This document shows, one piece after another, positions 26,597 through 31,600 of a stretch of DNA of 64,000 nucleotides. The stretch comes from an uncultured Verrucomicrobiales bacterium (GTDB lineage: Bacteria > Verrucomicrobiota > Verrucomicrobiia > Verrucomicrobiales > Akkermansiaceae). A program made the translations under genes and the position numbers. Location of the stretch: NCBI GenBank assembly GCA_937928735.1, contig CALFVF010000002.1, positions 1 through 64,000 of the forward strand, read 5' to 3'. The notes under the pieces were generated by a model. That model was not told the origin of the DNA, did no database searches, and worked only from the letters and a program-made list of their open reading frames with translations. Positions within the stretch are counted from its first letter, which is position 1; each line of letters opens with the position of its first letter.

Positions 26597-27328
26597 ATGA
26601 AACTGGCTGCTTTGACAACAATCATGACACTCTCTGGGGTGCTCGTTGTCAGTGGCCAGGCTCAACATTCTGAATTATCACAGCAGGCGCTGATGCGCCA
26701 AATTCAAGTTCTTGAGGAGAAAAACTCAGAACTTATAGAAACAAACAAACAGATCACCAAGAGTCTCGGACTTGCTCGAAAGAACAGTGAAGAGGCTCGA
26801 AGTGAACTGGAGCAAATGCGCAAGGCAAATCAGGCGCTCGGGATTTATCCGAATCTGGATAATAACGACCGCCTGGTACAGGTAGTAGCAGACAGAGAGG
26901 TTCTTGAAAGACAGTTGAGCACGCTTCGCTCAAGTGCAATAGAGTTCACTTCCATAGTCCGCGATTACCTCAAAAGTGCACTGGTGGCCGATCCTGATTC
27001 GAGGGTAAAGGTAGAAACTTCACTGAGAAGTCTTGACCTCGCTCTTGGATTAAGGCAAAAGCCGCAGCCCAGTCGAGATGTAGGTACTCTTCAGAGTGCA
27101 AACATTGTGAGTATAGACAGCCAATCTGGTCTGCTTGTACTAAACGCTGGCGCCACTGCTGACTTTAGGGTCGGCATGACATTTTTAATCTTTCGGGAGA
27201 ACCAGAAGATTGGAGAAGCCATCATAGCAGGGGTCAGACCAGACATTTCTGGAGCTCTCGTGCAAACGCTCGAAGACAACCAAGTTGGTGTTCGCCTAGG
27301 CGACACCGCATCGATTAAGATTCAATAA
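26597..27328 (+). CDS. exported coiled-coil protein inserted in the S10 operon
   Basis: This 243-residue protein is not a ribosomal protein. It has a signal peptide (MKLAALTTIMTLSGVLVVSG, cut near QAQ), then a long coiled coil (about residues 25-120: repeated Glu, Leu, Gln, Lys pattern such as RQIQVLEEKNSELIE). The C-terminal domain (about 165-243) is beta-rich, with VGMTFLIFRENQKIGEAII followed by GALVQTL and RLGDTASI, which resembles the small strand-rich modules of some periplasmic or flagellar proteins. It begins six bases after rpsS and ends 29 bases before rplV, so it must be on the ribosomal transcript. Its codon use is less biased than that of the ribosomal genes around it. Function unknown. 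Confidence 0.85.
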   Translation: MKLAALTTIMTLSGVLVVSGQAQHSELSQQALMRQIQVLEEKNSELIETNKQITKSLGLARKNSEEARSELEQMRKANQALGIYPNLDNNDRLVQVVADREVLERQLSTLRSSAIEFTSIVRDYLKSALVADPDSRVKVETSLRSLDLALGLRQKPQPSRDVGTLQSANIVSIDSQSGLLVLNAGATADFRVGMTFLIFRENQKIGEAIIAGVRPDISGALVQTLEDNQVGVRLGDTASIKIQ

Positions 27329-29884: not shown

Positions 29885-30118
29885 ATGAGCAAAATCAAAA
29901 CACATGTAACCAAAGGTGACCAAGTTATCGTCATTTCTGGTGGACATAAAGGCAAGAAGGGAACCGTTCTTTCAGTCAACGCGGCAAAAGGCCAAGTGAT
30001 TGTAGAGGGTGTTCGCAAGATGAAGAAGGCTCTTAGCCGATCTGAAGAAAATCCAGACGGTGGCATTGCTGAGCTAGATGGCCCGATTCACATTTCTAAT
30101 GTGAAGAAAGTCAGCTAA
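29885..30118 (+). CDS. rplX: 50S ribosomal protein L24
   Basis: A 77-residue assembly-initiator protein with a KOW motif: [23 protein letters not shown]. It ends KKVS. It is the last gene of the operon; rplE, rpsN and the rest of the spc operon do not follow, and a strong terminator stands 50 bases after the stop. The rest of the spc genes must be elsewhere. Confidence 0.97.
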
Positions 30119-30194: not shown

Positions 30195-30259
30195 TGTCCT
30201 AAACTGTTCTCTCTGACCACTCTCCGCCTCAGCTTTTAGGAGTCGCTAAGACGGATTTT

Positions 30260-30286
30260 ATACCAACTCAAAAAACTATCTGGTAT
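30260..30286 (+). repeat. 27-bp palindromic repeat, copy A
   Basis: Starts ATACCAACTC and ends TCTGGTAT with an A-rich centre; arms ATACCA and TGGTAT are complementary, extending to TTATACCA and TGGTATAA with the flanks. Differs from copy C at one position. It faces copy B in inverted orientation. Confidence 0.85.
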
Positions 30287-30391
30287 AATTCGCTAGATCT
30301 TTGACGAGATACCATCGTTGTCACCCACCCGCAGATGCTCGCATCACCGATGGGTTCCGCCTTGATCTCCCACCAAATCTCTTCGCCCTTT

Positions 30392-30418
30392 CTACCAGTT
30401 AGTTTTCCTCATTGGTAT
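30392..30418 (-). repeat. 27-bp palindromic repeat, copy B
   Basis: Read on the minus strand it is ATACCAATGAGG followed by AAAACTAACTGGTA and one changed end base. It is the same 27-bp repeat as copies A, C and D, but in the opposite orientation to A, and closest to copy D in the ATGAG centre. Confidence 0.85.
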
Positions 30419-30442
30419 TATACAGTGCGAGATAGAGTTTTC

Positions 30443-30943
30443 TTAGAGTAGTTTTTGCAATGACTGTGGGATGGGCTGATCGTGTTTCTTGAGTGTCAAC
30501 TCCATGCGCTTAGCGAGTGCTGGCAGTGACCAGACTCGATCTTTACGTGGAATGATGTCTTTGCCCTTTTCGTCGATGAAGCGAATCACCTGATAGTTCC
30601 AGGCTGGTTCATTGAACTGCTTGAGAATTTTGCGATCTTCTCCTCCGGTGTTGTTGATGACTAGGAGAGGGACAAAAGCTTCTTCGATGGCTTTGACCAT
30701 ATCTGGCTGACTCATGACATCCTGACCGAATGTCACACAGCCTGCTCATCCAGGGACTTCTTGGAAGAAGAGGAAAATGGGTTTCCCTGATGATTTGGAG
30801 TCTGCTAGGGCTTTGGTGTAGTCTCTGCCCCAGCTCACTGGGCCGACTTCTTTTGTTGATTTATCAATCGGTCTTGCATGGCAATTTGTGGCCAGAGCCG
30901 AGAAAAAGGCGAGGGAGCTGAGTGTAAACTGACGACGTTTCAT
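30443..30943 (-). CDS. predicted selenoprotein: exported thioredoxin-like protein with in-frame UGA
   Basis: The frame from ATG 30943 to the stop at 30443 is continuous apart from one TGA (30746-30748). If read as selenocysteine the product is 166 residues with Sec66 in VPG-Sec-AGC, a UxxC in place of the thioredoxin CxxC. The N-terminus (MKRRQFTLSSLAFFSALA, cut near CHA) looks like a signal peptide, possibly Tat-type because of the RR pair. Flanks are IFLFFQEVPG upstream and VTFGQDVMSQPDM downstream, followed by FNEPAWNYQVIRFIDEKGKDI. These are the conserved parts of a thioredoxin-like family with VPGCxxC that I recall from Planctomycetes and Verrucomicrobia. A SECIS-like hairpin begins ten bases after the TGA. 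Alternatives are a nonsense mutation or read error. It is divergent from pyrE. Confidence 0.75.
30715..30735 (-). promoter_or_regulatory. SECIS-like hairpin for the UGA codon
   Basis: On the minus strand TGACATTC (30735-30728) pairs with GGATGTCA (30722-30715), giving eight pairs (one G-U), with the apical loop GGTCA. Two further wobble pairs may extend the base. The loop starts 18 bases after the TGA. Bacterial SECIS elements lie directly downstream of the UGA with a loop usually 16-37 bases away and a GGU in the apical loop, which this fits. Structure is seen; binding by SelB is inferred. Confidence 0.65.
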
Positions 30944-31030: not shown

Positions 31031-31600
31031 ATGGCCATCAATGATCGCGAGCAACTCAAGGAAATGTTACTAGAGAAATCTGTCCGTACAGGTGAATTCA
31101 CTCTGGCATCAGGAAAGACATCAGACCTCTATATTGACTGCCGAGTGACAGCCATGGATGCTGTGGGCGCAAGTCTAGTTGGACGCGTTGGCTGGCAAGC
31201 TGTGAGTGAGTATTTAGAGGCAAATGAACTCGAGGTTGATTCTATCGGTGGAATGACGATGGGAGCCGATCCTATCTCACTGAGTGTAGGGATGACATCA
31301 GCCAATGAGTGCACGGAGAATGCGCTGCGTGTTTTCACTGTGCGTAAGGAGCCGAAGGGACATGGAGCTGGGAAGCAGATTGAGGGGAATTTCGCGCAGG
31401 GAGATGTGATTGTGATTGTCGATGATGTGATTACGACAGGTGGCTCGACGTTGAAGGCCATTGATGTGGTCGAGAAGGCAGGGGGGAAAGTGAAGTTTGC
31501 CCTCGTGCTTGTGGATCGTGAAGAAGGAGGACGCCAAGCGATCGAGGCTCGCGGGATTCCTGTAGTCGCTCTATTTTCACGAACTGAGCTCATTGGTTAG
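31031..31600 (+). CDS. pyrE: orotate phosphoribosyltransferase
   Basis: A 189-residue enzyme joining orotate to PRPP to make orotidine 5'-phosphate in pyrimidine synthesis. The PRPP-binding loop VIVDDVITTGGSTLKAI is intact, as is the flexible loop with RKEPKGHG. The N-terminal ASGKTSDLYIDCR is the orotate site region. Length is normal. It stands alone, divergent from the candidate selenoprotein gene. Confidence 0.95.
   Translation: MAINDREQLKEMLLEKSVRTGEFTLASGKTSDLYIDCRVTAMDAVGASLVGRVGWQAVSEYLEANELEVDSIGGMTMGADPISLSVGMTSANECTENALRVFTVRKEPKGHGAGKQIEGNFAQGDVIVIVDDVITTGGSTLKAIDVVEKAGGKVKFALVLVDREEGGRQAIEARGIPVVALFSRTELIG

Follow-up and report, generated by a model that had tools for sequence, protein, structure and literature searches.

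The selenoprotein family closest to the gene described here has already been named. Table 1 of a 2026 review (PMC13188914) lists a 'VPGUxxT family thioredoxin-like protein (hypothetical protein OS_HP5)' with the family model NF041383 and the motif VPGU, and its entry for OS_HP5 cites Zhang and Gladyshev 2007. OS_HP5 is also named in a passage of PMC9312934, which gives neither a domain nor a motif for it, while passages of PMC2398784 show OS_HP1 and OS_HP2 only, and the passages of PMC4807772 that deal with selenoproteins contain nothing on the VPGUxxT family. No account of the family in Verrucomicrobiota was found in the searched literature, which omits most subscription journals.

The gene lies in a stretch of 64,000 nucleotides (the window) from the genome of an uncultured Verrucomicrobiales bacterium. 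A sequence-only reading of the window had proposed that the gene represents a new lineage of Sec-containing proteins; that proposal fails for the family as a whole, since it is already catalogued as NF041383, OS_HP5 or VPGUxxT, and the Sec form is present in 26 genomes of a sample of the order. As far as comparative genomics can tell, the predicted product is a real selenoprotein of an already known family, and the added detail is a short, single-domain UxxC form that scores below the NF041383 cut-off, together with its spread in Verrucomicrobiales. No new mechanism is opened by the finding; it unites two apparent gene fragments as one predicted selenoprotein and shows that Verrucomicrobiales have a family in which Sec and Cys are exchanged.

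The gene (30443-30943, minus strand), which has homologs in support, runs from ATG to TAA and would encode an exported thioredoxin-like selenoprotein of 166 residues. Translation confirmed that its frame contains one in-frame TGA, as had been claimed, at codon 66 (30746-30748, minus strand) in the context FFQEVPG-U-AGC, and that the frame 3' of the TGA is intact to the TAA. The VPG-U-AGC motif places the predicted selenocysteine three residues before Cys69 (30737-30739, minus strand), which is taken, from its conservation in homologs, to be the partner of Sec in the UxxC pair. Under genetic code table 11 the gene is split into two frames, as had been expected, namely an ORF of 65 aa (30943-30746) and an ORF of 97 aa with a GTG start (30736-30443). 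In the read-through product, a match to Thioredoxin_7 (Pfam PF13899; residues 38-96, 30656-30832, minus strand) spans the TGA with a score of 35 bits against a cut-off of 27, in agreement with the earlier impression of a coherent, exported-looking thioredoxin-like protein on both sides of it; a thioredoxin-like domain with an active-site pair is present as far as sequence can tell. A putative N-terminal export signal was recognized by eye at approximately residues 1-23 (30875-30943, minus strand) and includes a Tat-like RRQF motif; relatives have hydrophobic N-termini, many of them lipoprotein-like.

Of the family models, NCBIfam NF041383 ('VPGUxxT family thioredoxin-like (seleno)protein, type 2'; E 7e-59, 199.8 bits) matches the product best, and the two share the VPGU motif in a thioredoxin-like domain and the specification of Sec by an in-frame UGA. 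The match covers only positions 1-134 of the 287 in the profile. Lacking the C-terminal half, the protein does not reach the curated cut-off of 275 bits; it is therefore a short homolog and not a member by NCBI's rule, and model-based annotation may miss the short form. Two-domain homologs pass the model, as exemplified by a Cys form (L180, 354.5 bits) and a Sec form (L186, 325.2 bits). The thioredoxin half of both proteins (L180:1501-2346 and L186:1501-2298) is fused to a partly MsrA-like domain with a CFWTGE motif, and the C-terminal part of two-domain homologs matches only positions 2 to approximately 39 of PF01625 (MsrA), below the cut-off in all three cases tested. The window protein stops short of this MsrA-like part, and a search run without a positive control did not find the second domain encoded on its own in the same genome. 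The name of NF041383 implies Thr at the third position after Sec (+3), whereas the window protein has Cys (UxxC, not UxxT). Members over the cut-off with Cys at +3 include L180 (VPGCAGC) and the full-length Sec protein L186 (VPGUGPC); because L186 is of the UxxC type, Thr at this position is not required in NF041383. A sample of the phylum contained matches to NF041383 at E<=1e-15 in 11 of 387 genomes, with 9 above the cut-off.

Other described systems were compared likewise. The Olavius algarvensis Delta 4 symbiont has an OS_HP5-like protein (L158) that is also short and single-domain, shares the position of Sec, extends for 105 residues from there to the stop codon versus 101 in the window protein, and has a similar NF041383 score (197.7 bits), but it differs in having the motif VPGUPGV, with no Cys at +3, and the loop sequence GGCC rather than GGTC in the hairpin region discussed below. 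NF041382 (VPGUxxT type 1) is matched by the thioredoxin half of the window protein more weakly than the type 2 model (122.1 bits; cut-off 350, profile length 349). Among known structures, the best profile match in the PDB (E 3e-4) covers the CxxC half and is to 3f9u, an exported protein related to cytochrome c biogenesis, and matches to the C-terminal domain of DsbD were weak (best E 0.056). Relative to Thioredoxin_7 proteins and DsbD, the first Cys is replaced by Sec in the window protein; the DsbD domain is part of a membrane protein, whereas the window protein stands alone and is only weakly similar beyond the active-site half.

Homologs of the gene were sought in 288 genomes of the order, of which 144 gave matches at E<=1e-3; 59 of the listed matches were strong (E<1e-24) and the others weak. 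The loci examined were these 59 and one fragment, 60 in all, and 58 of them are readable at position 66, two (L087 and L088) having no residue aligned there. Codon 66 is TGA in 26 readable loci (from 26 genomes) and TGC or TGT in 32, so that every one of the 58 has either Sec or Cys; this is the pattern expected if TGA stands for the first Cys of a CxxC motif, as had been suggested, and with 26 of 58 loci sharing TGA at the same codon its occurrence there exceeds chance. Positions 66 and 69 are both invariant (with Sec scored as Cys) in an alignment of 50 of the readable loci (A1). A wider set was assembled from the order loci, 80 loci from named genomes and 11 family-model matches, giving 149 loci that were reduced to 107 distinct homologs (32 Sec, 75 Cys); the named-genome loci are the best 80 of 477 relatives, and the sample is therefore skewed to close relatives. 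Nothing was found in favour of decoding of TGA as some other amino acid under a recoded genetic code, or of chance read-through. Either is extremely improbable: the Sec machinery is present, and TGA terminates 8 of the 46 non-overlapping ATG-initiated ORFs of at least 150 aa in the window (25 end in TAA and 13 in TAG), which makes it a normal stop codon there.

Genes of Sec incorporation were surveyed in 60 genomes of the order, with stricter filters for the tRNA scan. Of the genomes with TGA at codon 66, 23 of 26 have selB, compared to 3 of 32 Cys genomes (Fisher p 6e-10), and 23 of 26 have tRNA-Sec, compared to 2 of 32 (Fisher p 7e-11), both p-values being uncorrected for relatedness. Both genes are also present in a genome that has only a fragment of the homolog (G235) and in one that has no homolog (G233). 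Among the TGA genomes, tRNA-Sec is present in each one without selB (G104, G039 and that of the window, G000), and selB in each one without tRNA-Sec (G285, G101 and G208); the two absences never coincide, a pattern such as random gaps in draft assemblies would produce. Among the Cys genomes, G224 and G167 have selB and tRNA-Sec and G068 has selB alone; thus, Cys forms coexist with Sec machinery too.

The genome to which the window belongs is a draft of 40 contigs, 93.9% complete, and the set of sel genes for which the sequence-only reading had looked to it was recovered in part: tRNA-Sec (59.8 bits against a cut-off of 47, anticodon TCA), selA (493.8 bits) and selD (372.7 bits) were found, and selB was not. 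The selD gene (L048:1441-2526) contains an in-frame TGA in the context CGG-U-ASK, and SelD is therefore probably a selenoprotein itself. The selB family model gave no match over its cut-off in this draft assembly, and a query with the SelB of a congener did not find the gene either. Nine places were listed for selB with the family model, and the reading of ORFs covered all but one on contig C12 (19.5 bits); as judged from their ORFs, the matches are EF-Tu, IF-2, CysN, LepA and EF-G and a small GTPase-like protein. All five of the other congeners sampled have selB, and its absence from the assembly is therefore likely to be a gap in an incomplete draft. Placement of the missing gene by synteny was rejected, as the neighbours of selB vary over the five congeners (one run is common to G163 and G261, and one gene to G143 and G233); without conserved neighbours, the position of the gap cannot be located.

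The SECIS elements of bacteria have loops that carry G-G-U approximately 11 nucleotides past the UGA. The window gene is comparable to other bacterial selenoprotein genes in having a hairpin just past the UGA, with a loop motif that tracks Sec. Folding predicted a SECIS-like hairpin (30714-30736, minus strand) with a stem of 9 bp and the loop GGUCA, beginning 9 nucleotides past the TGA, and stretches around it have more stable folds than shuffled sequences (z -2.45 to -2.78). Rfam gave no credible SECIS match. At the place of the loop, GGTC is found in 23 of 26 Sec loci of the order versus 1 of 32 Cys loci, and among the distinct homologs in 26 of 32 Sec versus 6 of 75 Cys forms (p 1e-13, uncorrected for relatedness; the rows are related, and p-values for the hairpin therefore overstate the evidence). 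The looser motif GGYC is present in all 32 Sec and in 34 of the 75 Cys homologs. Nested pairs around the loop average 5.3 of 6 in Sec forms (26 rows) versus 4.3 in Cys forms (31 rows, one duplicate being omitted). When stem energy was compared with that of synonymous recodings, 8 of 26 Sec rows and 3 of 32 Cys rows reached p<=0.05, which makes the Sec stems weakly special by a test that is blunted because the codon pool was drawn from those very rows. No GGTC was found in the 60 nucleotides downstream of the TGA of selD in the same genome, and the loop motif is therefore not a general feature of this genome. One stem pair (20-27) appears compensatory in the GGGTCC class, whose 13 Sec rows comprise six C-G, six T-A and one unpaired; all of the T-A rows belong to a single clade of seven, however, so that the change may be a single event, and covariation at this pair was rejected as evidence. 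The covariation of pair 20-27 in rows of the GGYC class is mixed.

These comparisons also bear on the suspicion that the TGA is a nonsense mutation in a pseudogene, or a sequencing error for TGC or TGT, to which the draft state of the assembly and the failure to find selB in it lend some colour. It is very improbable given that 25 other genomes, with tRNA-Sec or selB, have TGA at the same codon, that the GGTC loop is found in those TGA genomes as well as in the window gene, and that the frame past the TGA is unbroken. On the comparative evidence, the gene product is very probably a selenoprotein in which UGA 66 is read as Sec.

The history of the Sec codon was examined on a tree of 105 rows, from which two truncated Cys homologs (L073 and L086) were omitted; the tree was built from few columns, and of its 102 inner branches 43 are open. 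The Sec/Cys label requires at least 11 changes on this tree, compared to an average of 27.6 for shuffled labels, with only 2 changes forced by well-supported branches; as read from the tree, Sec and Cys have been interchanged more than once in the family. Sec is unevenly distributed between the short forms (20 Sec, 8 Cys) and the long forms (12 Sec, 65 Cys) of the 105 rows, an association with p 1e-7 before correction for relatedness. In a phylogeny-aware test with five pairs on well-supported branches, Sec went in the same direction in an average of 0.6 of the five pairs and showed no difference in 4.4, and common ancestry may therefore account for the association. The link between the short form and Sec is unsupported once relatedness is allowed for, and it is improbable that Sec is tied to loss of the C-terminal, partly MsrA-like domain, with a stand-alone UxxC selenothioredoxin replacing a two-domain Cys form. 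The Sec and Cys relatives within a single order constitute natural pairs in which to ask what benefit selenium brings to an exported thioredoxin.

The window protein is most likely an exported selenol/thiol oxidoreductase of the thioredoxin fold. In the proposed mechanism, UGA 66 would be decoded as selenocysteine by tRNA-Sec, which SelB, expected from its presence in relatives, would deliver by binding the GGUC-loop hairpin downstream of the UGA. The product would then be exported to the cell envelope by a presumed route, and there Sec66 may attack a putative oxidised substrate, Cys69 may resolve the adduct to give a Sec-S-Cys bridge, and a DsbD-type membrane donor may reduce the bridge, if electrons flow in that direction. 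The explanation as a whole, from decoding through the hairpin to chemistry in a single-domain exported protein, is considered probable; the thiol/selenol chemistry (attack by Sec66, resolution by Cys69 and a DsbD-type donor) is, taken separately, slightly favoured. The same selenoprotein might instead use Sec66 alone, as a peroxidase or a monothiol reductase, with a secondary part for Cys69, as the published family name VPGUxxT would allow and as two Sec relatives that lack the second Cys (UPGV) would suggest, VPGUPGV being found in the Olavius algarvensis Delta 4 symbiont and a Desulfobacterales record. Such a function is rather unlikely for the window protein, considering that 30 of 32 Sec homologs and 74 of 75 Cys homologs carry Cys at +3 and that this residue does not vary in the 50-row alignment.

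The surroundings of the gene were also inspected. A run of ribosomal protein genes ends with rplX (29885-30118), and beyond it are the selenoprotein gene, on the opposite strand, and a pyrE-like ORF (31031-31600), as identified by eye. Within the run, between genes recognized by eye as rpsS and rplV, is an ORF of 243 aa (26597-27328, plus strand) with an exported, coiled-coil look, for which Pfam gave no match over the cut-off. Directly 3' of the selenoprotein gene, an element of approximately 160 bp with imperfect terminal inverted repeats occupies positions 30256-30422 of the window. About 40 copies in the same genome are 87-98% identical to this one (40 of 137 candidates were scored), and a single strand of the element has a more stable fold than shuffled sequences (z -4.0). 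There was no match to the element in Rfam, and a repeat-finding program reported no inverted repeat in it; in character it is MITE- or REP-like. Another copy (G000:C8:5466-5626) is separated from the 5' end of the tRNA-Sec gene by 7 bp.
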